Shown one piece after another: positions 25,858 to 42,094 of a stretch of 64,000 nt of DNA (its first letter is position 1; every line of letters starts with the position of its first letter). This stretch comes from Mariniblastus sp. GTDB taxonomy: Bacteria; Planctomycetota; Planctomycetia; Pirellulales; Pirellulaceae. Location of the stretch: assembly GCA_028823415.1 (NCBI GenBank), contig JAPKBL010000017.1:1-64000 (forward strand), in the 5' to 3' direction. The notes below the pieces were generated by a model. That model was not told the origin of the DNA. It did no database searches and worked only from the letters and a program-made list of their open reading frames with translations. A program made the translations under genes and the position numbers.

Positions 25858-25930
<73 letters not shown>

Positions 25931-25937
25931 CTGATTT

Positions 25938-26187: not shown

Positions 26188-27330
26188 ATGATGTCAAGAC
26201 AAGCGGTTTTTGAAGCGAGCCTGAGATACTTCTTACAACCGATCGGTGAATTTCTCGACGACCCTTCAATTACTGAAATTATGGTCAACGGGTACGAGCA
26301 AGTATTTATTGAGCGAAAAGGGAAGATTCAAAATACGGAGTCCGGTTTCCATAGTGAGGACGCCCTGCGATCTGCTGTGAACAACCTTGCACAATCGGTC
26401 GGTCGAGAGATCAGTGAAGACCATCCAGTGCTCGACGCCCGGCTTCCCGACGGTTCCCGGGTGCATGCAATCATTCCGCCAAGTTCCCGCGTTGGTACCT
26501 GCTTGACCATTCGGAAATTTTCCAGTGAACCATTAACGCTGGAGGATCTAATTGGGTTCGGCAGTCTCACCGAATCGGCACGTGAGTTTTTGGAAATTTG
26601 TGTGCGGTTGCGAAAGAACGTGATCATCTCCGGCGGCAGCGGAACAGGGAAGACTTCGATGTTGGGAGCGCTCTCACGAGCCATTCCTGAAACTGAACGC
26701 ATCATCGTCATCGAGGACACGTCGGAACTCCGTCTTCATCAAAAACACTGCCTTTACCTCGAAGCCCAACCCGCAACGAAAACGACCCAATCCGAGATGG
26801 ACATACGCGAGCTGTTTCGATCTTCATTGCGAATGAGACCGGATCGAATCATTGTTGGAGAAGTGAGAGCTGGTGAGGCACTGGATTTGATTCAATCGAT
26901 GATCAGTGGCCACGAAGGAAGTCTGTCAACGGTTCATGCCAGCTCGGCCGTGGATGCGATGGTTCGTTTGGAAACTTTGTCGCTAATGTCCGATGTTGAA
27001 ATTCCAGTTTATGTTGCCAGGGCCCAGGTGGCCTCAGCGATTGATCTCATCATTCAGCTAACACGTTCCAACGAGGACGGCCGCCGCCGCATTCATGCAA
27101 TTACAGAGGCCGGACGTTTAACTTCGGATCAGCAATATCAATTCAATGAATTGTACACCCTGAAACCGGTAAAAGCGGCTGCCAATTCCGAGTCAGACGA
27201 ACGTGTGGAAATGCAATTGACCCCAACAGGCACCGTGCCGCAGTTTTGTCAGGAACCCTATGAGAGTGGGATGGCGAATCGAATCAAAGCGTCAAAATCA
27301 ATGTGGAGCCGACCCACGAATATAAATTAA
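26188..27330 (+). CDS. cpaF: CpaF/TadA-family secretion ATPase (first copy)
   Basis: 380-aa hexameric ATPase of the type II/IV secretion superfamily that powers Tad/Flp pilus assembly. Signature parts: DPSITEIMVNG near the N-terminus, LDARLPDGSRVHAIIPP, LTIRKF, Walker A GGSGTGKT at 149-156, EDTSEL (Asp box), RMRPDRIIVGEVRAGEALDLI (Walker B) and GHEGSLSTVHA (His box). It is first in a 14-gene collinear cluster. A second CpaF, fused to an FHA domain, lies downstream, which is unusual because most Tad loci have one. A C-terminal extension (about 330-380) is polar and not conserved in the family. Confidence 0.95.
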   Translation: MMSRQAVFEASLRYFLQPIGEFLDDPSITEIMVNGYEQVFIERKGKIQNTESGFHSEDALRSAVNNLAQSVGREISEDHPVLDARLPDGSRVHAIIPPSSRVGTCLTIRKFSSEPLTLEDLIGFGSLTESAREFLEICVRLRKNVIISGGSGTGKTSMLGALSRAIPETERIIVIEDTSELRLHQKHCLYLEAQPATKTTQSEMDIRELFRSSLRMRPDRIIVGEVRAGEALDLIQSMISGHEGSLSTVHASSAVDAMVRLETLSLMSDVEIPVYVARAQVASAIDLIIQLTRSNEDGRRRIHAITEAGRLTSDQQYQFNELYTLKPVKAAANSESDERVEMQLTPTGTVPQFCQEPYESGMANRIKASKSMWSRPTNIN

Positions 27331-27382
27331 GCTGCCTTGCAAAAAAGCGACGTGGCAAACCGAAGCAATTATTGAAAATTTA

Positions 27383-27571
27383 ATGAAACTGAATCATCAC
27401 GCACCCACTAGCCATCGAGTCTGCCGTCGCGCCGCGATCGCCAGTCTGGATCTGGTACTTGTCCTTGGCGTTATTTTGCCGTTGGCTGCGTTCCTGATTT
27501 ATTTATTACCGCGAATGATAAAACTTGTCTACGAAATGACCATAACGATCATTGGATCTCCGTTGATGTAG
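27383..27571 (+). CDS. Small pilin-like membrane protein
   Basis: 62 aa: a basic N-terminus (about 1-20), one hydrophobic helix (about 23-45) and a short tail. The segment RRAAIASLDLVLVLGVILP resembles a type IV prepilin start in which Asp replaces the usual Glu at +5, but the residue before the presumed cleavage site is not Gly. It lies between cpaF and the Flp-like pilin gene and is probably a minor pilin or an assembly accessory. The small size leaves doubt about its function, less about its being translated. Confidence 0.6.
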   Translation: MKLNHHAPTSHRVCRRAAIASLDLVLVLGVILPLAAFLIYLLPRMIKLVYEMTITIIGSPLM

Positions 27572-27633
27572 AAACTGAATTGCTTCCAATTCAGCGAATC
27601 AACGGTTGTATGTTTTTACTAAAGGAAAAAGAG

Positions 27634-27846
27634 ATGAAGCGAATCTTGGACGTAAAGCGCGTCTTGAGGCGAATTCACAATGACGAAAAGGGTGGCGTCA
27701 GTTTGGAAACTATATTAATTATTGGCGCCATAGCGTTGCCAATCTTAATTTTCCTAATCACCGTCGCTTGGCCTCGAGTTAAAACTTTCTTCGAGCAAGG
27801 CATGACTGATTTAGAAAATGGATCCATTAACGCGCAAAGTCAGTAA
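27634..27846 (+). CDS. Flp-type pilin precursor
   Basis: 70 aa from the ATG at 27634, chosen because AAAGGAAAAA lies just before it; an upstream in-frame ATG would add 18 unneeded residues. The processing motif is EKG|GVSLETILIIG: Gly at the cleavage site, Glu at +5, then a hydrophobic helix (ILIIGAIALPILIFLITVAWP), the class III (Flp) prepilin pattern, except that Tyr at +6 is Thr. A short acidic C-terminal tail follows. It is the likely major subunit of the pilus encoded by this cluster, processed by the peptidase encoded directly downstream (zero-base gap). Confidence 0.8.
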   Translation: MKRILDVKRVLRRIHNDEKGGVSLETILIIGAIALPILIFLITVAWPRVKTFFEQGMTDLENGSINAQSQ

Positions 27847-28401
27847 ATGATTGCGACTTATGTTTTGTTGTGTTTGACAGTTGTTGCGACACTCACCGAT
27901 GTGTCGCGGCAGAAGATTTATAACTGGACGACCTACAGCGGAATTGCCGTCGCATTGTTATTGTCCGGGATCAAAACGCTGCTAAGTTCCAACGTGTTTT
28001 CCGAGATCGGTCTAGCAGAATCGCTCGTAGGATTCGCTTCCTGCGGCGGGATTATGTTGATTTGCTTTTTGTTGTTTCAAATAGGCGGCGGCGATGTGAA
28101 GTTGCTGGCCATGATGGGGGCGTTTCTGGGCTTAGAGTCGGGAATCGAAACTTTGTTATGGACCTTTGTGATTGGCGGAGCGATGGCCCTTGTGATTTTG
28201 ATCTGGAAAATGGGTCTGATCAAGCTGTTTAAGCGAGTCCTGCATCAATTGATGTGTCGACTCGGTGTAGGCGTTTGGGATGAATTGTCTCCGGACGAAA
28301 AAAAGCAATTGAAGCTTCCGTTGTATTTAGCTCCCGCTGCATTTCTGGCGTTGTTGATTGTGAAATTCAAAGCTGTCGAGTTGGTGTCGCAGGCGATCTA
28401 G
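27847..28401 (+). CDS. cpaA: Prepilin peptidase (A24 family, CpaA/TadV-like)
   Basis: 184-aa integral membrane aspartic peptidase that cleaves Flp-type prepilins. The two catalytic Asp are D18 (TDVSRQKIYNW) and D83 in GGGDVK (GxGD motif). Several membrane helices surround them. It lacks the N-terminal methylase domain of PilD, as usual for TadV/CpaA. A cytoplasmic loop at about 125-155 (KRVLHQLMCRLGVGVWDELSPDEKK) is longer than in typical CpaA. The ATG abuts the pilin stop codon. Confidence 0.92.
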   Translation: MIATYVLLCLTVVATLTDVSRQKIYNWTTYSGIAVALLLSGIKTLLSSNVFSEIGLAESLVGFASCGGIMLICFLLFQIGGGDVKLLAMMGAFLGLESGIETLLWTFVIGGAMALVILIWKMGLIKLFKRVLHQLMCRLGVGVWDELSPDEKKQLKLPLYLAPAAFLALLIVKFKAVELVSQAI

Positions 28402-28537
28402 TTTTTTCGAGTGGTTTCTAGCCCCTGAAAATTGTAGAGAGCACGTGGAAAGAGAATGTGTCGAATTTGTTTTAAGCTAGGAATTAGATAGACAAGTTTT
28501 ATACTTCAAGTCGTGGAGCATTTTTGGGAATGGGTTG

Positions 28538-29524
28538 ATGAATTCAGCAGTATTAACATCCTGTACTCCTTGGGCCATTTGCTTGGTGGTGGCGGTCGTT
28601 GCAGCGCGTCTGTTGGTTGGCCTCAGTGGTGCTCAGTTGAATGTTGCTCGTATTCGCAAAATTCACACCAACCAATCCGGTTCGGTGCAAAGCCTAAGCT
28701 TTGTCCTTACGCTGCCGTTTTTTGTGATGGTGTTGATGTTGATCGTACAGGTCAACCAGATCATGTTTGGTAATATTCTTGTCCATTATTCCGCTTTTGC
28801 CGCGGTGCGTTCAGCTTCGGTTTGGATTCCCGCTAATGGAATTTCTAATGATGAGACGGCTAATCGCATCAGTTCGATGACGCTGATTAATTCTACGGAT
28901 GAAGGGGAGCAATATTTGATCTCCCCTAGGTTAGATGGAAAGTATTCCGAGATTCGTCAAGCAGCTACTTTGGCATGCATGCCGCTGGCGCCTTCAAGAG
29001 ACCTTGGCTACACGCTTGGACAGGACGGGATCGGTTCGCAGATTGCGATGGAAAAAGTTTATTCTGGTCTGAATCCTGGGTCGACTTCCAACGCAAAAAT
29101 TTCCGCTCGGATTAAAAACAAGTTAGCCTATTCATACCCAAATACCGACGTTGAATTGACGTTTTGGCACCGATCTCGTTGGCGAAATGTGCGTATTCGA
29201 GATGAACGCGTGGAGTGGCGTGAGCCGCCGCTGCAGCCAATCTATCCAGCGTCCTACGGTGTTTCGCCTTATTTCGACGAGTATGATGACAATGAGCTTG
29301 GGTGGCAGGATGAACTAACTGCCTTGGTTACATTTAATCTGCCACTTCTCCCCGGTCCGATCCGCTTTTTTGCACCCACCGGTGGATCGATCGCGGCAGA
29401 CGGTACGGTTCCATCGCGAGATCAATCGGGCGAGGTGTATATTTGGCCGTTGAAGGCATTTGCCACAATGGGGATGGAAGGGCAAAAGCCCCAGCTTCCT
29501 TATTGGCAGGAGGATTTCCAATGA
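28538..29524 (+). CDS. TadE-like pilus assembly protein
   Basis: 328 aa from the ATG at 28538 (a TTG one codon earlier is also possible). One N-terminal hydrophobic segment (about 10-27) is followed by a TadE-like second one after a basic stretch: NQSGSVQSLSFVLTLPFFVMVLMLIVQVNQIMFGN, where QSGSVQSLSF mimics the pseudopilin processing region. The remainder is periplasmic, with a Tyr/Pro-rich middle. TadE/TadF/TadG are pseudopilins needed for Flp pilus biogenesis. Its stop overlaps the next start (ATGA), so translation is coupled. Confidence 0.78.
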   Translation: MNSAVLTSCTPWAICLVVAVVAARLLVGLSGAQLNVARIRKIHTNQSGSVQSLSFVLTLPFFVMVLMLIVQVNQIMFGNILVHYSAFAAVRSASVWIPANGISNDETANRISSMTLINSTDEGEQYLISPRLDGKYSEIRQAATLACMPLAPSRDLGYTLGQDGIGSQIAMEKVYSGLNPGSTSNAKISARIKNKLAYSYPNTDVELTFWHRSRWRNVRIRDERVEWREPPLQPIYPASYGVSPYFDEYDDNELGWQDELTALVTFNLPLLPGPIRFFAPTGGSIAADGTVPSRDQSGEVYIWPLKAFATMGMEGQKPQLPYWQEDFQ

Positions 29525-30888
29525 GCAGAAGGTCAATTGGCAACTGTGGTAATCAACGGAAATTGAATTCTGGATTGCCGTCTTTGATTCGACGAATCCA
29601 TCGGGATCAAAGCGGTTCAATTAGTGTTGCCACTGTGTTTTCGTTTATCTTCCTGACCATCGTTCTGGGGATGTTGATGAACGTAGGTCGCCATGCCGAT
29701 AGGAAAGTTAAAATTCAAAACGCCGCAGACGCGGCGACCATTTCAGGTGCCACGGTATTGGCCCGTGGGATGAACACGCTTGCCTTCACTAATCATTTGA
29801 TGTGCGACGTTTTCGCATTAACTGCCTACTTGCGCGAAGCCCGCGATCGAAACGCGGAGTCCCTGACACCTGAAATTCTTGAAAAATGGAATGCGATGGC
29901 GGCTGAATTTTCGGACGCCCCGCATCGTAAGTTTTCAGATTTGGCTCAGGGTATACCGGCCAAGACACCTCTCGAGCAGGATTTAATAACTGCGTTTTCT
30001 GAGCAAAACGCGACTGTCTCGGAAAGTTTACTTCCTGTGATGGAACAAATTTTGGATTTCGAGATGATTCCTGAATTCCAACGGGCGTTAGTGATTGCAT
30101 TGCCGCAATTGTCAGTTGCGGCCGCCGACGAAATTGCGTCGAGACACGGTCCGGCAGATCGAGGATTGTCCGGAAGTGATGCGATGCGTGCGAGGATGTG
30201 GCAAACCAGTGGATTTGAATTTGAGTCAATAGGTAGTTCTGGTTTATCACAAATGCCGGTTGCCGATCCAATTAATGACATAAGTCAACGGCAGCCAGAC
30301 TATTTTTCAAGAGGTATTGCAGAGCGAAAAACTGCGGCCAACCGATACTTGAATTATTTAAATTATCAAATGCTGCGCGACTTTGATGAGCACGCAAAGA
30401 TGAGTCAATATTCAAATTTGTGGCGTGGTTTTTCGAAAGCCTATCTACGTGAGCTACTCGAAGACGAGTATCCCGAGAGCAATGTTCCTTACCAGATCCG
30501 GCGTTCCGATTCGTCGCGTCAAGTTGAAATTGAGTCGGACTATATGTTCGTGGGTGTAACCTACTGGGGGCCGATGGAAGAGCGGATGCCTGGCCTGTTT
30601 TCGAATCCCAATTCCGGAGTGCAGGTGGCGTATGCACAGAGTCGTTTATACATTCCTCGAGGCCGCTTGTACCATGACTCCCGATTTGCTTTTCCGGAGG
30701 GTGTTTTCCGGCATTCTGTTCCGCGGCATCTTGATTTGATGAACCAAAACTGGGTGAGTCGATTAGTCCCCGCGACGACTCCGGCGATATCACAGATTTT
30801 ACAGACCTCACCTCAGAATTTATCCATTAGTGTGCCAAGCCTAGGAGGGATTAATGTTGAAGAATTTCAACAGCTCAACACCCACTAG
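29521..30888 (+). CDS. TadG-like Flp pilus assembly protein
   Basis: 455 aa from the ATG at 29521, set by a strong AGGAGG at 29508-29513 and by the ATGA overlap with the upstream stop. After a basic N-terminus, DQSGSISVATVFSFIFLTIVLGMLMNVGRHADRKVKIQNAADAATISGA is the classic TadG/TadE start: pseudopilin-like helix then the NAADAAAL-like motif. Long extracytoplasmic domain without a visible von Willebrand A fold. Part of the cluster of three TadE/G-like proteins in a row. Its C-terminal codons overlap the next gene by 35 bp. Confidence 0.82.
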   Translation: MSRRSIGNCGNQRKLNSGLPSLIRRIHRDQSGSISVATVFSFIFLTIVLGMLMNVGRHADRKVKIQNAADAATISGATVLARGMNTLAFTNHLMCDVFALTAYLREARDRNAESLTPEILEKWNAMAAEFSDAPHRKFSDLAQGIPAKTPLEQDLITAFSEQNATVSESLLPVMEQILDFEMIPEFQRALVIALPQLSVAAADEIASRHGPADRGLSGSDAMRARMWQTSGFEFESIGSSGLSQMPVADPINDISQRQPDYFSRGIAERKTAANRYLNYLNYQMLRDFDEHAKMSQYSNLWRGFSKAYLRELLEDEYPESNVPYQIRRSDSSRQVEIESDYMFVGVTYWGPMEERMPGLFSNPNSGVQVAYAQSRLYIPRGRLYHDSRFAFPEGVFRHSVPRHLDLMNQNWVSRLVPATTPAISQILQTSPQNLSISVPSLGGINVEEFQQLNTH

Positions 30889-31840
30889 ATTTCGCAATTT
30901 CTTTGGACGACGTAGAGATCGAGTTGGTCGAAAGAGTGTCTCGAGAACCGGTGGTGACCCCAGGCGAGGATTAGCTCCCGTCGAAATGGCGTTAACTCTG
31001 CCGCTATTGATGGCGTTTGTCGCCGCCTTGGTGGCCTTTGGCTATGCCGCGAGTTGGAAAATTCGTTCGGAAGTCGTCGCTCGGAACGTTGGTTGGCGGA
31101 ACCGGCATCCCCGCTGGGTAAATTGGGAAGCGTATCCTGCCGAGTGGCCCAGGTCGGCCACTTTCGATCGTCACGGTGGTCCGCAACTGAGTGATTTAGA
31201 TCAATTTTCAGTCACCCAGGCTCCAGTAATTAGGGGACCAATTTCACAGATAAACGTCGATTCGAATGTGCTGAATTTTAGCCGCGATGTAATTCAAGGC
31301 GGTGCTCAGATACAGCGCACCCCGCCGCTGTTGCCTGGCTTGGGGCAAATTTCTTATGATACCGAACATCAATATCTCGACGATTTTTTCACTCATTCTG
31401 AGATGGGAATTTCGAATAATTCACGCCGCATTCCTCGCATATACGATCTCGATTTAGATTTCGTGAGAGGTTCTGGACCAGTGATTGCTGCCATCTCGGC
31501 GATAGAAAATAACCCGCAGCGGCAGTTGTTAATTGCATTGGAAGACGATCCGGAATTTATCGCTTGGAGTGGCAGCGCGCCCGATTTTCATCCAAGGATT
31601 AGCACGCGGAACTACGAATTAGATGTTGGCTGGGTACGGCAACGATATGTCACAGGGCTTTTACGCTCTATCGAACGACTGCCTCAGACGATGGCCAATA
31701 GTACGATTCGATTGTACCGACAACAGATTGATGAGTCGATTCCTCCGCTATCTGATGGAGCGATCGCGGAGTTGGAGAGAAAAATTGAGGAATTGCAGGC
31801 GTACATTGAACGGCTGCGTGAACGAGCGGGGGAACGATAG
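30854..31840 (+). CDS. TadE/TadG-like pseudopilin with C-terminal coiled coil
   Basis: 328 aa. A basic N-terminus (about 1-35) leads to RRGLAPVEMALTLPLLMAFVAALVAFGY, the TadE processing region with Glu at +5 and a hydrophobic helix. The domain after it is extracytoplasmic and rich in Arg/Trp/Pro. The last 30 residues (AIAELERKIEELQAYIERLRE) form a coiled coil. The start is fixed by AGGAGGG at 30843-30849 inside the previous gene, 4 nt before the ATG, a tight translational coupling. Likely minor pilin/assembly protein. Confidence 0.8.
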   Translation: MLKNFNSSTPTRFRNFFGRRRDRVGRKSVSRTGGDPRRGLAPVEMALTLPLLMAFVAALVAFGYAASWKIRSEVVARNVGWRNRHPRWVNWEAYPAEWPRSATFDRHGGPQLSDLDQFSVTQAPVIRGPISQINVDSNVLNFSRDVIQGGAQIQRTPPLLPGLGQISYDTEHQYLDDFFTHSEMGISNNSRRIPRIYDLDLDFVRGSGPVIAAISAIENNPQRQLLIALEDDPEFIAWSGSAPDFHPRISTRNYELDVGWVRQRYVTGLLRSIERLPQTMANSTIRLYRQQIDESIPPLSDGAIAELERKIEELQAYIERLRERAGER

Positions 31841-31846
31841 GCTAGT

Positions 31847-32923
31847 TTGAGTCAATTGTCGGTTTACATGGGAAATAAAAAATCAGCAAAACGGGAAACG
31901 GATCCTTTGGAGTCAACTCACGCTGAGTCCAATGGCAAGCATTCGGCTGCTCCCTCGGGGCCAACTAACACAATCGGATCGACTGTCGGCAAGGTAATCC
32001 GCTGGACGAGCAATTTGATTGCGACCGGCCTAGTCATTGCGATCGTTATGACGTTTGGACCAGAGCTTATTTCATCGGTTCTGCCTTCGAAAACGCCGAT
32101 TAACTCGGATAAATTGGACATTGTTGAGGATTGGCCTACGTTTCAACAATGTAATTTGGAATTTGGCGACGCTGGGTATCAACTGAGTCGATCGAGTTTT
32201 ACGGGTGAGATCGACGACGTCTTCGATTTGCTCGAAAGCCTTTGTCGAGAGCAATTAGTAAACGACGTGAAGCCGTTCGGAACAATTGGGGTGCAAGAGA
32301 AGAAATTTATCGAAGCTCGAAACGGAACCGAACCGGTGGAGTCAGTACCTGGGACATACCGAATTTTCTGCGAACGTCTCAGGCCGATGTTTGCCGGGTT
32401 TCCGACAGCGATAGGAATACGTGATGATTGCGATCATGGGTCGCCCAGCGATTCAAGTCAAGTCGAACGTGCCTCACGCTCCCGGATGGCCGTATGGGCG
32501 ATGGCCATGCCAGCGGGTGAGCATCAGTGGACGACTTTTGTTGGTACTTCCGCTACAGAGGAGAGCAGCCAGTGGATAGATCGATTAATTCCACCCGAGG
32601 CGACCAAGAATCTCTCTTTGTCCGACCAACTGGGAGGTTCGGTCATCGGATTTGCGGGGGGAGACTTAGAAGAGGCGATTGAGTTTTATCGTCGTTTCGA
32701 ACAAGATCACCATTGCGAATTGAGAAACATACAAAGGGTAGAGACAAGTTGGAACAGTTCGGTTGTTTTGGCAGACGGAAAGAAAATATTGGAAGTTCGC
32801 GTTCAATTGACTCAACCTCAGGGCAAAGCGTTAACCGGAATACTAATGAAGAAATCGAGTGGCAAGACGGCCGATACGAGCCAGTCTGAACTTACTCTGA
32901 GAGAAGGAAATAAATATGAATAA
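31847..32923 (+). CDS. Membrane-anchored protein of unknown function in the tad cluster
   Basis: 358 aa with a TTG start (AGG 7 nt upstream); an ATG at 31868 is an alternative. Cytoplasmic polar N-terminus (about 1-50), one membrane helix at about 53-78 (LIATGLVIAIVMTFGPELI), then an extracytoplasmic domain of mixed alpha/beta without a family I can name. Position between the TadE/G genes and cpaB, and tight spacing (6 bp and -8 bp), make it a component or regulator of the pilus machine. Possibly a planctomycete-specific part. Confidence 0.7.
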   Translation: MSQLSVYMGNKKSAKRETDPLESTHAESNGKHSAAPSGPTNTIGSTVGKVIRWTSNLIATGLVIAIVMTFGPELISSVLPSKTPINSDKLDIVEDWPTFQQCNLEFGDAGYQLSRSSFTGEIDDVFDLLESLCREQLVNDVKPFGTIGVQEKKFIEARNGTEPVESVPGTYRIFCERLRPMFAGFPTAIGIRDDCDHGSPSDSSQVERASRSRMAVWAMAMPAGEHQWTTFVGTSATEESSQWIDRLIPPEATKNLSLSDQLGGSVIGFAGGDLEEAIEFYRRFEQDHHCELRNIQRVETSWNSSVVLADGKKILEVRVQLTQPQGKALTGILMKKSSGKTADTSQSELTLREGNKYE

Positions 32924-33692: not shown

Positions 33693-33725
33693 TTTTCATT
33701 GAAGAAATGAACGGAAAGAAAAAAC

Positions 33726-35729
33726 GTGAAAATTTGGTTTAACAAAATTAACGAGAGTCGTCGCTCTATCTTCGAGATTGATGATAAAGACGAATCCGGG
33801 ACTCCCGTCGACGTAGAGGTTACCATCGGTCGCGATGATACCAATATGTTGATTTTGGAAAGCCCATTGGTTTCTCGCCGTCACGCCATCGTGCGTCGAA
33901 AGGATAATGTATTCGAACTCGAAAACATTGGCCTGAATGTGTGCATGATTGGGGAAACTGAGATTGGAGTTGGAGAATCCGCACAATTCGATACTGGGAT
34001 GCCGGTGAGAATTTGGCCGTACACACTTAGCTTTGAGCTCGAGACACTACCTCAAGTGAGTCGCGAAGAGTTTGACGGGCACGTTCGTAAGGTGATGGCA
34101 AATCTTGAGCAAAAGATTCACAAGCAACTTCTCGAGCGGCTCGATCTAGTGGGTATGGAGAGTTCTCGCACGCCAGATCAAAAAAGCATTCTTTTACTGG
34201 AACACAACATCGAGGATTGCTGTCGTGAAATGCAGGTTTTCTCAGAAGAAAATGAAGACCTGTTAAATAGCGTTGTTGGTTTGGTCCTTCGGGATTTACT
34301 TACCAATCAAATTATTCTTGAGGGCGGTCAAGATGCGGCAAAATTGGCACCGCTGGCCTGCAACGAATTTGATATTCCAGCAACGTTAATTCCCGAGCGG
34401 GAACTCGAGTTGGAAAATCTAATTCGGATGTTGAAGGATAAGTTGCAGATTGACATTCCGACCGATACGAGTGAAAAGATACGGATTGTTGATCAAAATG
34501 CACAATCAGTGTTTCCATCGTTTCAAAGGTTCCTCCATGGCGAGTTGCGCAAATACGTGATTCTGAGAGCCTTGAAAAAAGACCTCAAAGATACTGTATT
34601 CGGATTTGGACCTCTTCAGGATTTGCTTCGTATACCGACCATTACCGAGATCATGGTTGTCTCAAGCGATCAGATTTATGTCGAGACGGATGGTGTGATT
34701 GAAAAATCCGGCCGTCGTTTTATCTCCGATCACGTTACGGAGTCAGTGATTGAGCGGATTGTAGCTCAAGTTGGACGAAGGATTGACAAAAGCCAGCCCC
34801 TTGTGGATGCCCGTTTGCCAGACGGTTCGCGTGTTAACGCGATCATTCCACCGCTTTCCGTTTCGGGTCCCTGCCTCACGATTAGGCGCTTCCCAAAGGA
34901 TCGCCTGACGATAGAAGAGCTTATTAACAAACAAAGTTTAACCAGTTCAGCCGCCGCATTTTTAAGAGCAGCGGTGGGCAATCGTCGTAATATTTTGGTT
35001 AGCGGCGGAACCGGCAGCGGTAAAACGACCATGCTCAACGCGATGAGCAGTTTTATCTCTTCGAAAGAACGGATCGTTACCGTGGAGGACACGGCCGAGT
35101 TAAAGATGCACCAAGAGCACGTTGTCACTTTGGAAACACGCGCCGCCAATGTGGAGGGAACGGGTGCATACACTGCTCGCGATTTAGTAAAAAATGCATT
35201 GCGCATGAGACCGGATCGCTTAATTGTTGGTGAATGTCGCGGTGGCGAAGCGCTAGACATGCTGCAGGCGATGAATACCGGACACGATGGTTCGATGACA
35301 ACCGTGCATGCTAACAGCGCCCACGAGGTAATCGAACGGCTCGAGTTGTTAGTTCTAATGGCCGTAGAATTACCGATCAAAGCGATTCACCGGCAAATTG
35401 CTTCGGCTCTTGATTTAGTGGTTCAGCTAACCCGGATGCAAGATGGCCGCCGGATGGTGACTCAAATTTCAGAGGTGGAGGGAATGGATGAGGAAACTGG
35501 TAATCTCACCGTAACCGATATATTTAACGCGCGGGATGGAATCATGCTGCGACCGACTGGGCGTCTTCCAACGTTTGTAGACCAATTGGTTGATAAGAAT
35601 CTACTGGATTTGAGATTCCTGTACCACGAAGATCGGATGCCCCAGTCAGGGGCGGCGATGATCGAATCAAAACCTCCACTAGCAAGAAACCTCACTGGCA
35701 ATCCACCCAATGCGGAACTCTTGCCATAA
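33726..35729 (+). CDS. FHA-domain CpaF-type secretion ATPase (second copy)
   Basis: 667 aa, GTG start. N-terminal FHA domain (about 25-105) with the phosphothreonine-binding signature: GRDDTN at 35-40, SRRH at 50-53, then NIGLN. It is followed by an extended alpha-helical region (about 110-290) and a full CpaF/TadA ATPase: TITEIMVVSSDQIYVE, DARLPDGSRVNAIIPP, Walker A GGTGSGKT at 427-434, EDTAEL, RMRPDRLIVGECRGGEALDML (Walker B) and GHDGSMTTVHA (His box). A fusion of FHA to CpaF is recorded in some bacterial annotations, but its role is not established. A Ser/Thr kinase gene closes the same cluster, which makes phospho-control of the motor plausible. Confidence 0.93.
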   Translation: MKIWFNKINESRRSIFEIDDKDESGTPVDVEVTIGRDDTNMLILESPLVSRRHAIVRRKDNVFELENIGLNVCMIGETEIGVGESAQFDTGMPVRIWPYTLSFELETLPQVSREEFDGHVRKVMANLEQKIHKQLLERLDLVGMESSRTPDQKSILLLEHNIEDCCREMQVFSEENEDLLNSVVGLVLRDLLTNQIILEGGQDAAKLAPLACNEFDIPATLIPERELELENLIRMLKDKLQIDIPTDTSEKIRIVDQNAQSVFPSFQRFLHGELRKYVILRALKKDLKDTVFGFGPLQDLLRIPTITEIMVVSSDQIYVETDGVIEKSGRRFISDHVTESVIERIVAQVGRRIDKSQPLVDARLPDGSRVNAIIPPLSVSGPCLTIRRFPKDRLTIEELINKQSLTSSAAAFLRAAVGNRRNILVSGGTGSGKTTMLNAMSSFISSKERIVTVEDTAELKMHQEHVVTLETRAANVEGTGAYTARDLVKNALRMRPDRLIVGECRGGEALDMLQAMNTGHDGSMTTVHANSAHEVIERLELLVLMAVELPIKAIHRQIASALDLVVQLTRMQDGRRMVTQISEVEGMDEETGNLTVTDIFNARDGIMLRPTGRLPTFVDQLVDKNLLDLRFLYHEDRMPQSGAAMIESKPPLARNLTGNPPNAELLP

Positions 35730-35792
35730 CAATACAAGATCATTCATTCTCCATTGATCCTTCAGCCTCCTAGCATTCCAGCACAAAGTTTT

Positions 35793-36641
35793 ATGAGCAC
35801 ACCGGACACCCTACTTTTAAGCACGTTGATGGGCATCGCTGTTGGCGTTGCGTCATGGATGAGTCGGGACTGGGTTAGCCGGATGATCGATTTGATAGAA
35901 GCTGACGTCCGCAAGAAATTGAAGGCGATGCGCATCGTGGCTCCACGGTTACGGATGTATCTATCCAGTTGGATCTATTTGATGGTCATTGCGCTGGTGG
36001 GACTATGGTTTGGTTACGGCAATCCCGTGTTCGCATTCATGGCGGTTGCCTTAATGGGGCCTTTTCCATGGTATTTATTGCGGCGAATGGCGGAGCGCCG
36101 ACGATTGAAAATCGAGGATCAACTAGCCGGGAGTATGACGACACTTGCCGGAGCGATTCGAGCAGGTCTCTCTCTCGCTCAAGCATTGGAAATTTTAGCC
36201 GAACAGTCTCCCAGTCCCATCCGTCTCGAATTCCAACACATGGTTGGCCAGTACTCGATGGGAAAAACGCTCCAGGAGACGCTCCTAGAAGCAAAACAGC
36301 GGTTGCAAAGTGAAAACTTTTCAATGTTTGCCGCGGCGATGTTGGCGAGTCGGGAGAGCGGTGGAAAGCTAAATGAGACGGTCGAGCGCATTGCTGACTC
36401 GGTACGCGAATTTCAACGGCTCGAGAGGAAAATTGAATCCGAAACGGCACAGGCTAGAAAATCCGCGCTTTACATGGCGATCGCCCCTCCAGTAATTCTA
36501 CTGGTTTATTACTTTGTTGATCCGGTCAATACGGGTCGTTTGTTTTCTACCCTTCCCGGGCAAATTATGCTCTCGGTTGCAATTCTTTTAAATGTATCTG
36601 CGTGGCTGTGGTCCCGTTCAATCTTGGCAGCCGACATTTAA
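35793..36641 (+). CDS. tadB: TadB-like inner-membrane assembly protein
   Basis: 282 aa from the ATG at 35793; an upstream TTG at 35754 would add 13 residues. Two groups of membrane helices (about 10-30, 60-110, 230-280) flank the cytoplasmic T2SSF domain: MTTLAGAIRAGLSLAQALEILAEQSPSP, LQETLLEAKQRL, MLASRESGGKLNETVERIADSVREFQRLERKIESETAQARKSA. TadB and TadC form the inner-membrane platform for the TadA motor. Its stop codon lies inside the first unit of a 16-bp tandem repeat. Confidence 0.9.
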   Translation: MSTPDTLLLSTLMGIAVGVASWMSRDWVSRMIDLIEADVRKKLKAMRIVAPRLRMYLSSWIYLMVIALVGLWFGYGNPVFAFMAVALMGPFPWYLLRRMAERRRLKIEDQLAGSMTTLAGAIRAGLSLAQALEILAEQSPSPIRLEFQHMVGQYSMGKTLQETLLEAKQRLQSENFSMFAAAMLASRESGGKLNETVERIADSVREFQRLERKIESETAQARKSALYMAIAPPVILLVYYFVDPVNTGRLFSTLPGQIMLSVAILLNVSAWLWSRSILAADI

Positions 36642-36694
36642 TTTTGTGATTAACTAATTTTGTGATTAACTAATTTTGTGATTAACTAATTTTA
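36639..36694 (+). repeat. 16-bp tandem repeat, 3.5 copies, across a stop codon
   Basis: Unit TAATTTTGTGATTAAC is present three times (36639-36654, 36655-36670, 36671-36686) plus a partial unit to 36694. The first three bases of unit 1 are the tadB stop codon, so in-frame stops recur downstream. Located between tadB and tadC. Confidence 0.92.
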
Positions 36695-36737
36695 TTCCAC
36701 CACTTGTTTCTGAAACTCAATTAAACCCGACAATGCT

Positions 36738-37691
36738 GTGAATCTGTTAAACACCACTAATTTTGAATTTCTCGCCGCAGCGGATCCTGCTGCCGCGATC
36801 CCGACTGTCGTCACGGCAGCGTCGGTTTTTATGTTCGCTTGGTGGGTGGCTCGTTCATTGCAAACAGGCGACCTTGAGCAAGGAAACGAATGGCGATTTG
36901 ATGTCAGTCGGATTAATGATTTGCGGCGAAATGATTCGATGTATCGAATTTTTCAACCTGTGATTCGAATACTTGCGCAACTAAACCGCGGAGCGTTCCG
37001 CGACTTCCTGCCGTCAATTTACCGAGAAATTCAGGCTGCCGGTTTACCACGAACCTGGCTGCCAGAGGAATACTTAGCGAAGTTGCAGCTAATTGGGCTG
37101 TTGATCTCTCCGTTTCTCATTTTGGGTTGCGTCCAGTGGATGGGGGGATTTGGGATCGTCATGGGGGTGGTTTTTACGTTTGTCTTTATCATCTTGTTGC
37201 GAAGGAATCTGCGTCGCAAGGCAGTGCTGCGGCTTACAAATATCAAGCGTCGCATGCCGTTCATGTTAGATTTGATGACGCTTCTGATGGAAGCTGGTAC
37301 GACGTTTCTTCACGCCCTGGAACAGGCGGTGAGCGAGTATCGGGGTCACGCCTTGTCGCAGGAGTTTGCCAGGGTACTGACGGATATGAATCTCGGAAAA
37401 ACAAGGAAGCAGGCCTTTGAGTCGATGCGGGATCGGCTTCAGGATGATGAGATTACAAGCATTATCGGATCGATGTTACAAGCAGAGCAATTGGGTACGC
37501 CGTTATCGGCTGTTTTTCGAACCCAAGCCGATGTATTGCGAATGAAAAGATCTCAACGCGCCGAGGCAATTGCGGGCGAAGCGGCCGTCAAAATGTTACT
37601 CCCGGGCGTGCTTGTGATGGCGGCGACGGTGATCGTGATTATCGGTCCCTTTGCGCTTAATTTTCTTATCTTTGGATTTAACATTGACTAG
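36738..37691 (+). CDS. tadC: TadC-like inner-membrane assembly protein
   Basis: 317 aa with GTG start. Helices at about 20-40, 120-160 and 290-315 flank a T2SSF domain: FMLDLMTLLMEAGTTFLHALEQAVSE, FARVLTDMNLGKTRKQAFESMRDRL, SIIGSMLQAEQLGTPLSAVFRTQADVLRMKRSQRAEAIAGEAAVKMLLPGVL, the TadC consensus. With TadB it forms the platform of the Tad machine. Separated from tadB by about 96 bp that contain the 16-bp repeat array. Confidence 0.9.
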   Translation: MNLLNTTNFEFLAAADPAAAIPTVVTAASVFMFAWWVARSLQTGDLEQGNEWRFDVSRINDLRRNDSMYRIFQPVIRILAQLNRGAFRDFLPSIYREIQAAGLPRTWLPEEYLAKLQLIGLLISPFLILGCVQWMGGFGIVMGVVFTFVFIILLRRNLRRKAVLRLTNIKRRMPFMLDLMTLLMEAGTTFLHALEQAVSEYRGHALSQEFARVLTDMNLGKTRKQAFESMRDRLQDDEITSIIGSMLQAEQLGTPLSAVFRTQADVLRMKRSQRAEAIAGEAAVKMLLPGVLVMAATVIVIIGPFALNFLIFGFNID

Positions 37692-37749
37692 CTCAAGATT
37701 GAGAGAAAGCCTCTAATAGTTTGTATCCAAACTCATTTAGACAAGAGTT

Positions 37750-38664
37750 ATGAAAAACGAAAACTGTCCAAGCTGCGGTGGGAAACTCGGCGTTCCGGAA
37801 AAGCTCAAGGGCCATCCGGTTCGATGCCCAAAATGCGATTTGGAATTTGTTCCGGACGAAGTCCATCGAAAGTCAAAATCAGAAAGAAAAAGGAAGTCGT
37901 CTTCGAACGCGAAACAACCTGCGTTGCGGGCCGTACCGCTGCCGACTGCAGTCTCCGAAAGGGAGACAGAAGGTTCTGGGTCGGTAACTCAACTTGAACG
38001 TTCCACCGCTCCCTTGATGCCGCCAAAAAAGAAGCGTAAGTCAAAGAAAAAAGTAGAAACAATATCCTCGGCTGTAATGTCGGTCGAAACGGAGCGGGTT
38101 CCGGAAACCCGAAAGAGTGAATCCTCGTCTTCAGCGGAAGTCCCGGCGGAGACGATCGACCCTCCCACCGTTGCAAAAATAATTCAACAAGAGACCGTGG
38201 AGCCACAATTAACCAAAGACGGCAAGTTGCCCACATTGCTTTTAGCAGATGAAGTGAAGCCGCGAATTTCCGACAAGGGCGGATGGAAATCAAATCCGAT
38301 TTTCGTTGGTCTTCTGATATGCTTTAGCCTTGTTAGTTCAGGTGGGATGTTATTTCTTATCGAATCAGGGCAACCCGACGCGAAAAAAGAGGTGGAATCG
38401 GCGCGTAATGACGTGGTCAGGTTTTACCAAGTACGAGACGATCAAGTATTGAAACCCTACCAGAGAGAGCTAAGGGAAGCCCAGCGCGCTCACTCCCGAA
38501 AAGATTATTCCGCTGAATCCAATTACTATCAAAAAGTAATGTTGCGGTTTAAGAACGAAAACCTAGTTAAATACGCAGGACTGACTGGCAGTCCGGTCGG
38601 AGATAAAGAACTTGAAAAGCATGTTTCCCTGTTGTTAAAAGACGCCAAAAAGCGCGCGAAGTGA
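37750..38664 (+). CDS. Zinc-ribbon membrane protein of the tad cluster
   Basis: 304 aa. An N-terminal zinc ribbon (CPSCGGKLGVPEKLKGHPVRCPKCDLEF, about 5-32, C-x2-C...C-x2-C) is followed by a basic/acidic Ser-rich linker (about 35-175), one membrane helix at about 185-205 (FVGLLICFSLVSSGGMLFLI) and a coiled-coil-like C-terminal domain outside. Such ribbon-linker-TM proteins are frequent in planctomycetes beside kinases. Same strand and spacing as the kinase gene that follows (61 bp). Function unknown; the ribbon may bind nucleic acid or protein in the cytoplasm. Confidence 0.72.
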   Translation: MKNENCPSCGGKLGVPEKLKGHPVRCPKCDLEFVPDEVHRKSKSERKRKSSSNAKQPALRAVPLPTAVSERETEGSGSVTQLERSTAPLMPPKKKRKSKKKVETISSAVMSVETERVPETRKSESSSSAEVPAETIDPPTVAKIIQQETVEPQLTKDGKLPTLLLADEVKPRISDKGGWKSNPIFVGLLICFSLVSSGGMLFLIESGQPDAKKEVESARNDVVRFYQVRDDQVLKPYQRELREAQRAHSRKDYSAESNYYQKVMLRFKNENLVKYAGLTGSPVGDKELEKHVSLLLKDAKKRAK

Positions 38665-38725
38665 AAATAGTATACGGTCAAATTAATTTGACTAGCGAAC
38701 ACTCCCCTTAGATTCCAAAAATGAC

Positions 38726-41700
38726 ATGGCGAAAGATCGATCAAAAAAGCGCTACGACAAGCTAGTCCTCATTGGTGAGGGTGAGTATGCGAAAGTTTAC
38801 TCCGCCGAAGACACAAAGCTTGGTAGAAATGTCGCGGTCAAGCGAGTACGCAGTCAATTTCTCGATGACAAGGACAAACTGTCGCGATACTGGAAAGAAG
38901 CGCAGCTTCTCGTCGATGTCGAGCATCCGAATATTTTGACAATCTACGATTTAATGAAATCGAAAGGTTGTCTTGTGCTTGAGCTAATGAAGGGAAACCT
39001 CAAGCAGATCTACGGCGATCGCCCAATGCCGGTCAAGGATATTCGTGAGATGTTGCTCCAAGTCGCTCGTGGACTGGATTGCTTACATAAAAATGAAATC
39101 ACCCACGGCGATGTGAAGCCGGAAAACTTAATGTTGAGTCGGCAGGATGTGGTAAAACTCGGAGATTTCGGATTAGCGAGAAGGGCCAGCGACGAAGAAG
39201 GAAGTCTTTTAAAGGGAACGACCAAATATATGGCGCCTGAGTTGGTGTCCGAAGATTTTGGCGAGGTAGGCACCGCCAGTGATCTCTATTCCCTTGGATT
39301 TTCTGCTCTCGAGTTAATGATCGGGCCCGAGTTCGATTCGCTTTTCCCTGATTTGATTGCTTTTGGTCGCGACAAGCAAATGGCGTGGATGATGTGGCAT
39401 TGTTCGGCCGACCGTAAATTTCCGGCAATTCAAACGGTACTTGAAGGTGTCCCAGACGATTTGGCGGAGGTACTCCAAAAGCTGACATCGAAACAACAAA
39501 GTGAACGATACAAAACAGCCAAAGAACTAATCGATGACTTGACCGGCGGAACCAAACTCATCGGAGAAGCTATCCGAGACGACGAGGCCGAAGCAAATGA
39601 ATTAGCGAAAAAGAAAAAACGTAAACACCGAATACAAGCGTTGGCTACATGTTGTTTAAGCTTGATGGTTACGGGCATTATCTTCTGGGCCATTCAAGAA
39701 CCGCGACCAAAGCCAGTCGCTAAAGTCATTGATCCGGTGCGGGGGATCGTCAAAAATGTTTTGCCGATCGACCAAAAATTCGTGATCGATCTAGGGAAAG
39801 ACTGGAAAGAATACAAACTCAGCGCCGCTGATGTCGTCCAGATCAATCGAAAAAAACGTCTTCTCAATGACCTTCAATTAGGCGATCGCACAATTGTTTA
39901 CACTCGCCCAAAAACCGAAACCGCTTCGGGGTTTTTGGAAGTCGTCGCTTTTCGACCGGAGACGCATGAGGGTGTGCTAACGTCGGTTGATAGCGAAAAT
40001 GGCAAAATTGAGGTTTCTGTAGTTGGTGGCACGGACGAGGGTGAGGTGTTTGAACTTGCTTCGATTGGTGAAACCGTAATTAGCGTAAACGAGGAAACTG
40101 AAAAAGACGGCCAGCCATTGACTTTTTTGGAACTGGCCGAGGGCGACGAAGTCGTTGTTGACTTGTCCGATGATGAATCTGGAATGGTCGCACTCAAGGT
40201 CTTGGCGACACGTCTGGTCGCGTTCGAGGGTGTCATTAGGAAGCTCGACCCGCCCAATGGAACGATTACGATTGGAGTCGACAGTGGAGGCGGCAATGAA
40301 CAGTTGATCACCCTTCCGATTGATCCTGGCTGTTCCATAACCTTAAACGGCCTTGCCTCCATTGACCAAAAACTCTTGGGTGTGGTGAATATTCGAGTGG
40401 GGGATCAGGTCAAAGTTCGTCACGATATAAAGATCAAAGCGCTCGAGGCCTATCGAGATTTTGCTGACATGGGTCGAATTTCGTCGATCGACTATGCCGG
40501 CAATGTAATCGACGTAAAAAGTATCGATTCGACCGAAATGCAGCAGTATAAGATCACACCCGAGACCAGCATTAAGTTAGGTTTAAGCGTGGTTGAATTG
40601 GCTGACCTTCGACCAGGCGATACAATTGAGTTAAATCACGCATCCCCGGATGCAGATGTTCCTCCACTGATCTCGCTTGAGGCCACGCGGATGGCAAATC
40701 GAAATCGCTGGGTCATCCTAATTGGTAACCAGAGTTTTGATTCCAGCTCAGTGAAAGAGAATCGGACAGCAGTTTCAGACCTTCAGTCATTGCAAGAATC
40801 GTTGGTAAATCGTTTTGCTGTCCCCGAGAATCAGATTTCTGTTTTCGAAAATGAAAGTCGTGTTCGCTTAAAAAATGAGATACCTAATTTACTTGATCGG
40901 CTAAGTTCAAATGATGAACTCTACGTCTACGTCACGACCCGTGGCTATTTGGAAAAAGGCGATCGAGCCTATTTAGCCACGAAAGAATTCGTTGAATCCA
41001 AAATGGATGAAACTGGCTTAGCGTTGGATTGGTTGATTGACGAAATAGACGCCTCGAATGCCAGTCGCAAGTTGTTAATGCTCGACTGTAGCACCGACGA
41101 TTCAGGGAAATCGGTCAGCGGATTATCAATGGTTGAGTTGATTCAGTCCTCGAAACGTGGTGGTTTTCCAAAGTCCACTTATATTCTTTTGAGCTGCGGG
41201 GAAGGAGAGACGGGACTGGAGTCGTCCAAGGAGCCCGATAAGAGTCTGTTTGGTTTGTCGTTGGCTGAGGCTTTTTCCGGTGAAGCCGATCAGCAACGCG
41301 ATAACGACATTGAAATAACTGAATTTACCACGTACGTAACCGATCAGGTTGAAGAATTGGCTAGTTCGACCGGTCGCTCGCAGCACCCCCAACTTATTCT
41401 TCCAGATGATACGCCGCCCCGCCTTTCTGAACCGGCGAGGCAGGCAACGATCGCATTGTTGTCCAAACTTGACCAGAAAGGTTTGAAAGAGCCAGAAATC
41501 CGAGCAGAGGCGATCGAAGCGGAAAGACTTGCGGGCGGACAGCCGGACCCCATGCTGGCTTGCGGAATTCTCTTGATTCGCGTTGGAAAGATCAACGAAG
41601 CACTTGAGATATTAGAAAGCATTCGCTTGTCTCACTCAGACTTTCTGGTTTCGCACCAAGCGGTCATTTGGATTCATTTTTATAAAAAACACTATAAGAT

Positions 41701-42094
41701 TGGGACTGCGAAAATCGCAGAGTTGCTGACGCAGATCCCCAAGCCGGAAAAGGCAGGCGAATCTTACAGCCGAGAAAATTTAGACCGATTAGAATGGGCC
41801 GGTCGGCTTAGAGGGCTTGCCGAACTTGGGAACTGGGCTCCTCCGCCACGCATGCCAGATCGCCAGGATTTGGCGAACTGTGATCGATTAGCGGCCGATC
41901 ATGGCGAGGTGGCCAATGCTCGGTATCTCGCCGGGAAAAAAGCGGCAGAAGCTGTCGTGAAGCAATTTCAGTCGGAACTGGCTACTGATCCTGATTCCAA
42001 AGCAAAATTAGAACGTGAACGAATCGATTTTTATGTTGAGAAAATCGCCAGCCCCAGCACGGTAACAATCATTCGAAGCGGACTCGACAAGTGA
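38726..42094 (+). CDS. Membrane Ser/Thr kinase with C-terminal caspase-like (probably inactive) domain
   Basis: 1122 aa. Kinase domain about 10-275: glycine loop GEGEYAKVY, VAVK, catalytic HGDVKPEN (H127-D129), DFG at 147-149, APE later. A basic linker precedes one membrane helix at about 302-322. Then a beta-rich region with OB/DUF5666-like repeats (about 340-650). From about 658 NRWVILIGNQSF starts a caspase-like (C14) fold: the place of the catalytic GHG is TRG (R739), and the DAC motif is D787-C788-S789, Cys shifted by one. Both dyad residues look lost, so it is probably a pseudo-caspase. Ends with a helical TPR-like part. It follows the zinc-ribbon gene by 61 bp and closes the tad cluster. 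Confidence 0.85.
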   Translation: MAKDRSKKRYDKLVLIGEGEYAKVYSAEDTKLGRNVAVKRVRSQFLDDKDKLSRYWKEAQLLVDVEHPNILTIYDLMKSKGCLVLELMKGNLKQIYGDRPMPVKDIREMLLQVARGLDCLHKNEITHGDVKPENLMLSRQDVVKLGDFGLARRASDEEGSLLKGTTKYMAPELVSEDFGEVGTASDLYSLGFSALELMIGPEFDSLFPDLIAFGRDKQMAWMMWHCSADRKFPAIQTVLEGVPDDLAEVLQKLTSKQQSERYKTAKELIDDLTGGTKLIGEAIRDDEAEANELAKKKKRKHRIQALATCCLSLMVTGIIFWAIQEPRPKPVAKVIDPVRGIVKNVLPIDQKFVIDLGKDWKEYKLSAADVVQINRKKRLLNDLQLGDRTIVYTRPKTETASGFLEVVAFRPETHEGVLTSVDSENGKIEVSVVGGTDEGEVFELASIGETVISVNEETEKDGQPLTFLELAEGDEVVVDLSDDESGMVALKVLATRLVAFEGVIRKLDPPNGTITIGVDSGGGNEQLITLPIDPGCSITLNGLASIDQKLLGVVNIRVGDQVKVRHDIKIKALEAYRDFADMGRISSIDYAGNVIDVKSIDSTEMQQYKITPETSIKLGLSVVELADLRPGDTIELNHASPDADVPPLISLEATRMANRNRWVILIGNQSFDSSSVKENRTAVSDLQSLQESLVNRFAVPENQISVFENESRVRLKNEIPNLLDRLSSNDELYVYVTTRGYLEKGDRAYLATKEFVESKMDETGLALDWLIDEIDASNASRKLLMLDCSTDDSGKSVSGLSMVELIQSSKRGGFPKSTYILLSCGEGETGLESSKEPDKSLFGLSLAEAFSGEADQQRDNDIEITEFTTYVTDQVEELASSTGRSQHPQLILPDDTPPRLSEPARQATIALLSKLDQKGLKEPEIRAEAIEAERLAGGQPDPMLACGILLIRVGKINEALEILESIRLSHSDFLVSHQAVIWIHFYKKHYKIGTAKIAELLTQIPKPEKAGESYSRENLDRLEWAGRLRGLAELGNWAPPPRMPDRQDLANCDRLAADHGEVANARYLAGKKAAEAVVKQFQSELATDPDSKAKLERERIDFYVEKIASPSTVTIIRSGLDK

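Follow-up and report, generated by a model that had tools for sequence, protein, structure and literature searches.

The window analyzed here, a stretch of 64,000 nucleotides from Mariniblastus sp. (Pirellulaceae; positions 1 to 64,000 of the forward strand of contig JAPKBL010000017.1, assembly GCA_028823415.1), contains at positions 26188-42094 a block of 14 plus-strand open reading frames (ORFs) in tight order, which encode a Tad/Flp pilus machine and, at the end, a transmembrane Ser/Thr kinase. Two of the gene products are CpaF-type motor ATPases, namely CpaF1 and a protein with an additional N-terminal FHA domain, termed FHA-CpaF in the following. With guarded confidence, we read the block as a Tad machine of planctomycetes whose motor is duplicated and whose dedicated membrane kinase docks the motor and licenses pilus dynamics. 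The direct basis of this reading is gene content, gene order, predicted topology, co-inheritance, the conservation of FHA contacts and catalytic residues, and the joint decay of both partners in a sister lineage. An earlier note on the window had described 14 packed genes with two CpaF-type ATPases, one of them FHA-fused, which is borne out by the ORFs and their Pfam matches, and had proposed that the kinase could phosphorylate a pilus component that is then recognized by the FHA domain.

Results

Strong evidence for a functional pair comes from a census of 397 genomes of the class, in which one and the same sample was searched with a profile of the FHA domain plus linker (A1) and a profile of the beta-repeat region of the kinase (A4). 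Both profiles were built solely from loci of the type that carries both genes, and the cut-offs were at least 282 bits for FHA-CpaF of this type (type 1) and at least 76 bits for the kinase region. FHA-CpaF was present in 55 genomes and the kinase in 56; both were found in 55, neither in 341, and the kinase alone in 1. The kinase is thus present in every one of the 55 genomes with FHA-CpaF and in 1 of the remaining 342 (Fisher p = 4e-67, uncorrected for relatedness). Absences are subject to the first pass of the profile searches, which scores only a limited number of top candidates in each genome (up to 6 for A1, 5 for A4, 3 for A2, and 46 for A6), and the next-best kinase matches come close to the cut-off with up to 64 bits (G527, G471, G493, G658, and G511); these genomes were counted as kinase-less, and none of them has a type-1 FHA-CpaF. 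In G731, a frame break interrupts the FHA-CpaF gene, which we nevertheless scored as present. This break (locus L202) lies near profile position 82, within the FHA part, and is either a sequencing error or real.

The 55 genomes with both genes span 40 of the 186 sampled genera, and presence and absence vary within families and also within genus g13, in which G541 has both genes and G216 neither. The starts of the two matches are 5.8-7.0 kb apart in 20 genomes; the matches lie on different contigs in 32, of which some are mere assembly breaks, and far apart on one contig in 3 (G105, G291, and G488), where the distance is at least 1 Mb even round a circle. Since kinase and FHA-CpaF are kept at such distances, their association is not mere linkage. 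Among the neighbors up to 5 kb away from 35 unlinked kinases, there was no gene family that recurred in more than 5 loci, and those 5 were Zn-ribbon genes of the block. The co-inheritance of kinase and motor across relatives, even with the genes far apart, suggests a joint function, and the co-conservation on which the earlier note had staked its proposal beforehand was found in all 55 genomes, also when the genes were unlinked. When 392 genomes from across the phylum were searched, the same 12 genomes were obtained for both genes, none of them outside this class; this sample overlaps the class sample and is therefore not an independent test. Here, A1 matches had to exceed 350 bits, and the kinase was called not by score but when a match extended over the beta-repeat region, starting close to its beginning, because caspase-only matches of other proteins reach 125 bits.

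CpaF1 was detected in 52 of the 55 genomes, 51 times with a strong match and once, in G541, cut by a contig end; it was not found in G453, G459, and G601. As single sequences served as queries for CpaF1 and for the secretin CpaC, but a profile for the kinase, 52 versus 55 is not a strict comparison. Nine of the CpaF1 matches contain a stop within the matched stretch. In G601 (locus L138), FHA-CpaF is the sole CpaF-type match at E ≤ 1e-50, there is no CpaC-type match at E ≤ 1e-10, and the kinase lies about 6 kb away, so that G601 possibly has a minimal system. At L155:4344-11999, a single ORF of about 2550 amino acids (aa) includes the kinase, with the kinase domain from about residue 1676, which is either a fusion or a read-through.

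The order of the genes is conserved as well. Our locus search returned 78 loci, 60 of which match the ATPase part only (from residue 200 or later) and were left out of the kinase inspection, and 18 planctomycete loci have a full-length FHA-CpaF. In 13 of 13 loci that are long enough, the kinase gene is the last in order and follows a Zn-ribbon gene, and the remaining 5 of the 18 contigs end earlier. The comparison of gene order and kinase presence across planctomycetes that the earlier note had suggested was thus positive for every reachable locus, and the grouping of the block is well past chance. The kinases of relatives are 82% down to 34% identical to the window kinase, two of the 13 (L032 and L039) being without the caspase part, and the closest named relatives are metagenome-assembled genomes of Pirellulaceae, some of which are called Mariniblastus.

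FHA domains contact phosphothreonine by an Arg (in a GR motif), a Ser (in SxxH), and an Asn. The FHA domain of the window has these Arg, Ser, and Asn contacts with R36, S50, and N71, and also has H53. Because the rows from the contig search partly duplicate the G-numbered genomes, we also counted distinct sequences. Among 67 distinct type-1 FHA domains, R36, N67, and N71 are present in 67/67, S50 in 61/67, and H53 in 45/67; by rows, the numbers are 72/72 for R36, N67, and N71, 65/72 for S50, and 49/72 for H53, which is otherwise Gln (73 rows, one of which, from the frame-broken gene, is without the region). The window kinase has the Lys, the HxD Asp, the Asn, and the DFG Asp of Hanks-type kinases. 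In the 63 distinct type-1 kinases, HxD Asp, Asn134, and DFG Asp are invariant (63/63), and Lys39 is present in 60/63. By rows, these counts are 67/67 and 64/67, as the kinase domain is missing in one of the 68 entries, that of G618, which is cut by a contig end. The Lys is replaced by Arg in three type-1 kinases of one genus (G257, G484, and G613), and Ser50 of FHA is Ala in the same genomes, which may hint at a link between residue loss in FHA and kinase within type 1.

The lineage with a divergent FHA-CpaF, which we named type 2, comprises 14 genomes (104-180 bits with A1), three of which carry type 1 too. Where contigs are long enough, the type-2 block shares most genes in largely the same order; we found no match in these blocks to the Zn-ribbon protein or to the window protein encoded at 31847-32923. 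In the type-2 FHA domains, Arg is kept in 13/14 and Asn71 in 11/14, Ser is found in 2/14, and His and Asn67 in 0/14. A kinase-domain profile (A6) was then applied to the 14 type-2 genomes, to G547, and to 40 genomes taken as controls without either type. Type-1 kinases scored 452-469 bits, a separate band of 11 kinases 176-272 bits, and everything else at most 161 bits, including all 40 controls. Nine of the 11 band kinases share a contig with the type-2 block. The kinase of G559 scores in the generic range (about 141 bits) but lies on the contig of the block, and counting it results in 12 of 14 type-2 genomes; G682 (69% complete) and the second system of G633 (contig end) gave no type-2 kinase. 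In each of the 12 type-2 kinases, including that of G559, one or more of the residues Lys, HxD Asp, and DFG Asp are missing. With G510, one of the 40 controls, it is 13/13, as this genome proved to have an FHA-CpaF block that diverges still further and whose kinase (HGR for HxD) and FHA are both degenerate. CpaF1 did not exceed 400 bits in any of the 40 controls, the best match being that of G510 at 334 bits. The ectodomains of five of the 13 type-2 kinases are caspase-like with TPR (two), FGE-sulfatase-like (two), or consist of Ig-like repeats with TPR (one). As judged from these sequences, type 2 is a lineage in which the kinase-fold partner has been retained, the sensor has been swapped, and catalytic and FHA motif residues have been lost jointly. 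As the pair is retained there although kinase and FHA are both degenerate, it must have a further function besides phospho-signaling by this kinase.

Trees were calculated with FastTree on subsets of 54 ATPase domains and 50 kinase domains. In the ATPase tree, type-1 and type-2 FHA-CpaF group together (0.92), as do type-1 and type-2 CpaF1 (1.0), and a support of 0.99 separates all four groups from eight alphaproteobacterial CpaF proteins and this genome's canonical CpaF. In the kinase tree, the type-2 kinases group together (0.999), type 1 groups with type 2 (0.905), and the support for type 1 alone is 0.56; the tip L124, labeled generic, is a truncated copy of the L207 gene. By these groupings, the motor pair and its kinase partner appear to be older than the split into type 1 and type 2. 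Some type-2 loci have further peculiarities. L211:1420-5493 encodes a 1357-aa protein in which a YscD/FHA-like domain is combined with caspase and TPR parts and with two kinase domains, the HxD motif being altered in both. In two type-2 blocks, another protein adjoins TadC at the position of the type-1 Zn-ribbon protein; that at L119:5931-6728 has a YscD/FHA-like match of 32.0 bits against a cut-off of 33.2, and that at L118:13723-14481 has no family match.

The window kinase (38726..42094, plus strand, 1122 aa; PF00069, E 1.2e-45; NF047832; AlphaFold2 (AF2) model) consists of a kinase domain (residues 10-268), a transmembrane (TM) segment (302-324), beta repeats (about 335-655), a caspase-like region (about 660-890), and helical repeats to the C-terminus. 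A second hydrophobic segment (486-504) lies within the beta-repeat region. The basic stretch KKKKRKHR precedes the hydrophobic segment 302-324, and the kinases of relatives (64/65) have a median net charge of +2 in the 15 residues before the TM segment and of 0 after it. According to the positive-inside rule, the kinase domain is therefore predicted to be cytosolic and the ectodomain to reside in the envelope. The terminal transmembrane kinase with a caspase-like fold had already been recognized in the earlier note; the caspase part corresponds to NCBIfam caspase_w_EACC1 (residues 662-876, E 9.7e-18), with 64.4 bits well below the cut-off of 140, and has no Pfam C14 match. The columns of the catalytic dyad, assigned by eye, are occupied by Arg and Ser in the window kinase, and of 58 sequences including the window, 40 have the His, 11 the Cys, and 8 both residues, again with columns set by eye. 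In 7/65 kinases, the region is absent altogether. An active caspase protease was thus rejected for the window kinase, and sensing or binding is the most likely role of the region. A Foldseek search with the whole kinase model gave kinases only among the best 50 matches listed, so that the caspase assignment is based on NCBIfam and the AF2 secondary structure. Neither the FHA region nor the beta/caspase profile gave a match in sequence searches of the PDB.

The earlier note was also right that genes for a secretin and TadZ/CpaE are missing from the block: tblastn with this genome's own CpaC and CpaE as queries (E ≤ 1e-3) gave no match in the window or in 122 related loci, a search that a very divergent secretin could escape. 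Elsewhere in the genome (5.4 Mb, 265 contigs), where the note had advised looking for it, a secretin is encoded as part of a canonical Tad set. Contig C89 carries the peptidase, CpaB, secretin, and TadZ/CpaE genes, all above Pfam cut-offs (CpaB also by TIGR03177), and contig C7 a canonical CpaF-TadB-TadC set, likewise above Pfam cut-offs. A CpaC-type secretin was found elsewhere in 52 of the 55 genomes with FHA-CpaF, 47 times with E < 1e-45, so that a secretin could act in trans in most of them. It was not found in G601, G613, and G725, which do hold other secretin-family proteins.

Possible phospho-acceptors were sought by Thr conservation in 75% of rows. Conserved Thr residues occur in the ATPase domains, in the FHA-CpaF linker (T220 in 70/74, T290 in 69/74), in TadB/TadC loops, in the P+1 loop of the kinase, and in transmembrane or outer segments; the protein encoded at 31847-32923 has a conserved T54 at the membrane edge (41/48). 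The linker of the Zn-ribbon protein has a median of 10.5 Thr residues (minimum 5, n = 46 relatives), and the CxxC pair is found in 20/46. By the composition of its linker, the Zn-ribbon protein is a candidate substrate of the kinase.

The block starts with CpaF1 (26188..27330), a motor ATPase of 380 aa without FHA (T2SSE, E 1.4e-54; TIGR03819, 262 bits, below its cut-off), followed by two small pilin-like ORFs that were assigned from size, motif, and location. These are a 62-aa Flp-like pilin or pseudopilin (27383..27571) with one hydrophobic segment and counterparts in related loci, which is the 14th ORF of the block and was shorter than the length cut-off of the first ORF list, and a 70-aa Flp-type pilin (27634..27846) with a prepilin-like GGVSLET motif, conserved in 33 sequences and without a Pfam match over cut-off. 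In classical Flp pilins, the prepilin-motif Glu is followed by Tyr. In the 70-aa pilin, a Thr directly follows this Glu and is invariant in 33/33 sequences. Next come the CpaA/TadV prepilin peptidase (A24; 27847..28401; PF01478, E 5.9e-15), a TadE-like large pseudopilin (28535..29524; PF07811, 13.3 bits, below the cut-off of 22.9, with the same position in related loci), a TadG-like protein (29521..30888; PF13400, E 3.6e-07), and a second TadE-like protein (30854..31840; PF07811, 23.4 bits against 22.9). The fast-evolving one-TM protein that precedes CpaB (31847..32923) is of no known family; it has no Pfam or NCBIfam match, an AF2 model with a mean predicted local distance difference test (pLDDT) of 67, and no PDB match at E ≤ 0.001. 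The CpaB/RcpC-like protein (32916..33692) matches TIGR03177 with E 3.5e-07 and 29.7 bits, below the cut-off of 71, and RcpC with 14 bits. FHA-CpaF (33726..35729) has its FHA domain at about 33819-34010 (PF00498, 35.9 bits against a cut-off of 20.7), followed by the motor ATPase (PF00437, E 1.3e-62), and is succeeded by the platform proteins TadB (35754..36641; PF00482, E 1.1e-22) and TadC (36738..37691; PF00482, E 2.4e-16). The Zn-ribbon protein (37750..38664) has a Ser/Thr/Pro-rich linker and one TM segment, matches its family below cut-offs, and is located between TadC and the kinase in related loci. All these genes are on the plus strand. The block thus has two T2SSE proteins over the Pfam cut-off, with TIGR03819 as the best NCBIfam match, below its cut-off, as well as PF00482 twice and the peptidase, TadE, and TadG families (PF01478, PF07811, PF13400), as is characteristic of Tad machines.

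Directly upstream of the block are tRNA-Ile(GAT) and tRNA-Ala(TGC) genes (25725-25931). Downstream follow a ketoacyl synthase gene and, as the second gene, that of a WD40-fused kinase (44101-48132), whose first part is also matched downstream in L023, L025, L030, and L038, and then two sulfatase genes and a GH16 glycosidase gene (48257-54145), which form a polysaccharide-degradation neighborhood. Promoter-like sites were fewer than in shuffles (11 versus 17.4) and terminator-like sites more (29 versus 19.8, standard deviation 4.4), and neither was interpreted.

Discussion

An FHA-fused CpaF is in itself already known, and it is the dedicated kinase, as a candidate partner, that is the new part, as far as the accessible literature goes. 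In the open-licence literature (titles, starts of abstracts, and searched passages, with most subscription papers and bioRxiv's own holdings outside), no Tad machine with a kinase-FHA link was found, also not among the listed papers on Tad systems or kinases of planctomycetes, and the passages on the FHA domain of Tad motors name no partner for it. In the parts of the source covered, class III CpaF (FHA-IDR-CpaF) is described for bacterial Tad pili, mostly of betaproteobacteria (PMC12019362). The window protein shares its N-terminal FHA, above the Pfam cut-off, fused to a CpaF motor. The same passages mention no kinase partner or second motor for class III systems, whereas our block has both CpaF1 and the kinase and is without secretin and TadZ genes. 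For the Tad-like Kil predation apparatus of Myxococcus, which also has an FHA-fused motor (KilF), the authors proposed FHA-based signaling upstream of Tad assembly (PMC8460266). As described there, Kil has a single ATPase, a secretin, several separate FHA proteins, and no TadG. As our block has two ATPases, a TadG-like protein, and no secretin gene, we rejected its membership in Kil. In the main text of the Kil papers PMC8460266 and PMC12075869, the word 'kinase' occurs 0 times. The suggestion of the earlier note that this control layer is not established for Tad machines therefore stands, within this literature, for the kinase-FHA link, but not for FHA-CpaF (PMC12019362) or for a proposal of FHA signaling as such (PMC8460266), both of which had been described.

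Closer parallels for the kinase are found in secretion systems. In type VII secretion systems (T7SS), as far as the consulted part of PMC11217815 goes, a motor ATPase with N-terminal FHA is combined with a membrane kinase or pseudokinase whose kinase domain is in the cytosol and whose C-terminal part (with TPR in TsjD) is outside, in T7SSb to T7SSj. In T7SSb, the FHA of EssC has no phosphothreonine site and binds the pseudokinase EssB, and in T7SSd and T7SSj, a conserved FHA motif occurs with a predicted kinase (PMC11217815). Loss of the motif with a pseudokinase resembles our type 2, and its retention with a predicted kinase our type 1. The T7SS motor belongs to the FtsK-related EssC family of a Gram-positive secretion system (PMC11217815), and the likeness of its kinases to ours is one of architecture. 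We give about even odds to the view that a Tad kinase-FHA coupling evolved in parallel to that of the T7SS, with a phospho-switch in one lineage and a constitutive pseudokinase-pseudoFHA dock in its sister, the machine having a dedicated pair of duplicated motors but neither a secretin nor a TadZ gene in its block. In the type VI secretion system (T6SS), a membrane kinase and an FHA protein (PpkA-PppA-Fha) also control assembly, and Thr-362 of Fha1 is the target in Pseudomonas aeruginosa, according to the passages of PMC5995506 covered. By analogy, a Thr of the FHA-CpaF linker may be a reasonable candidate in our system. In the T6SS, the FHA is on a separate protein and the phosphatase PppA is encoded (PMC5995506, same passages), whereas our block has the FHA on the motor and no phosphatase was seen.

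In the model that we favor, the kinase domain would be located in the cytosol and the ectodomain in the envelope. FHA-CpaF would use its FHA domain to bind the cytosolic kinase domain or a Thr phosphorylated by the kinase, which could be on the kinase itself, in the FHA-CpaF linker, or on the adjacent Zn-ribbon protein. Binding would bring the motor hexamer to the TadB/TadC platform and license pilus dynamics upon a cue sensed by the ectodomain. A membrane-anchored kinase-fold protein would thus dock the motor FHA, gated by phosphorylation in type 1 and constitutively in type 2. Docking, phosphorylation, substrate, signal, and the roles of the motors in extension or retraction are what we infer from the observations. 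For the signaling link that the earlier note had proposed, co-conservation and the largely conserved FHA contact positions speak in favor, and the degenerate type-2 pair restricts it, as phospho-signaling is then not the sole function.

Several observations weigh against this model. Relatedness was not considered in the census statistic, and G547 has the kinase and CpaF1, with FHA-CpaF not found. His53 of the FHA domain is replaced by Gln in 22/67 distinct type-1 sequences and Ser50 by Ala or Gly in 6/67, and in G365, G488, G601, and G725, Ser50 is lost while the kinase Lys is kept. The joint decay between the types is essentially one evolutionary event. The AF2 model of the kinase has a mean pLDDT of 75, and the kinase lobe is poorly modeled. 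Thr conservation does not single out a phospho-acceptor among the block proteins, and family scans found no phosphatase among the block genes (PP2C was not sought in the rest of the genome). Near some type-2 blocks (G583, G707, G735, and G510), there are intact kinases of other subfamilies, so that the FHA there could read another kinase.

Alternatively, docking might be independent of phosphorylation throughout, with the kinase-fold protein as a structural receptor for the motor FHA and the type-1 kinase activity being incidental or autoregulatory. Such a receptor would agree with the persistence of the pair in type 2, in which 13/13 kinases and the FHA domains are degenerate, with the variation of FHA His and Ser already within type 1, and with the T7SSb precedent of EssB as the receptor for EssC. 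However, a mere scaffold would not need the HxD and DFG motifs that type 1 retains in 63/63 kinases or the Arg and Asn of 67/67 FHA domains, and we regard this explanation as rather unlikely. It is improbable, in our opinion, that the kinase regulates the system without the FHA route, via transcription or another Tad part, and that FHA-CpaF reads the product of another Hanks kinase. There is no shortage of such kinases (4-43 matches per genome at E ≤ 1e-30, the intact ones near type-2 blocks, and the WD40-fused one near the window block), and kinase and FHA-CpaF often reside in separate loci, but it is one kinase subfamily that co-occurs nearly exclusively with FHA-CpaF systems, in two lineages, and FHA and kinase residues are lost jointly.

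That co-inheritance merely reflects one ancient cassette or a lifestyle, without direct functional contact between kinase and Tad block, seems very improbable to us. In the phylum sample, both genes are indeed restricted to some lineages of one class, and our statistics are not phylogeny-corrected, but the pair spreads over 40/186 genera, is patchy within families and genus g13, and is kept with the genes megabases apart. Kinases are common in these genomes, as exemplified by the WD40-fused one at 44101-48132, and an unrelated kinase could by chance have come to lie behind a Tad operon. With the order kept in 13/13 reachable loci and the census of 397 genomes, there is next to no probability left for a chance neighborhood, and we rejected it.

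In type IVa pili, extension and retraction are driven by separate motors. A second paralogous CpaF in one machine therefore bears on the question of separate extension and retraction motors in Tad systems. The model of a kinase-docked duplicated motor offers, with the dedicated and co-inherited membrane kinase, a concrete candidate partner for the FHA domain on Tad motors, and the sister lineages, with residues intact on both sides in one and decayed on both sides in the other, amount to an experiment set up by nature, by which the phospho-control of a type IV filament motor can be tested.

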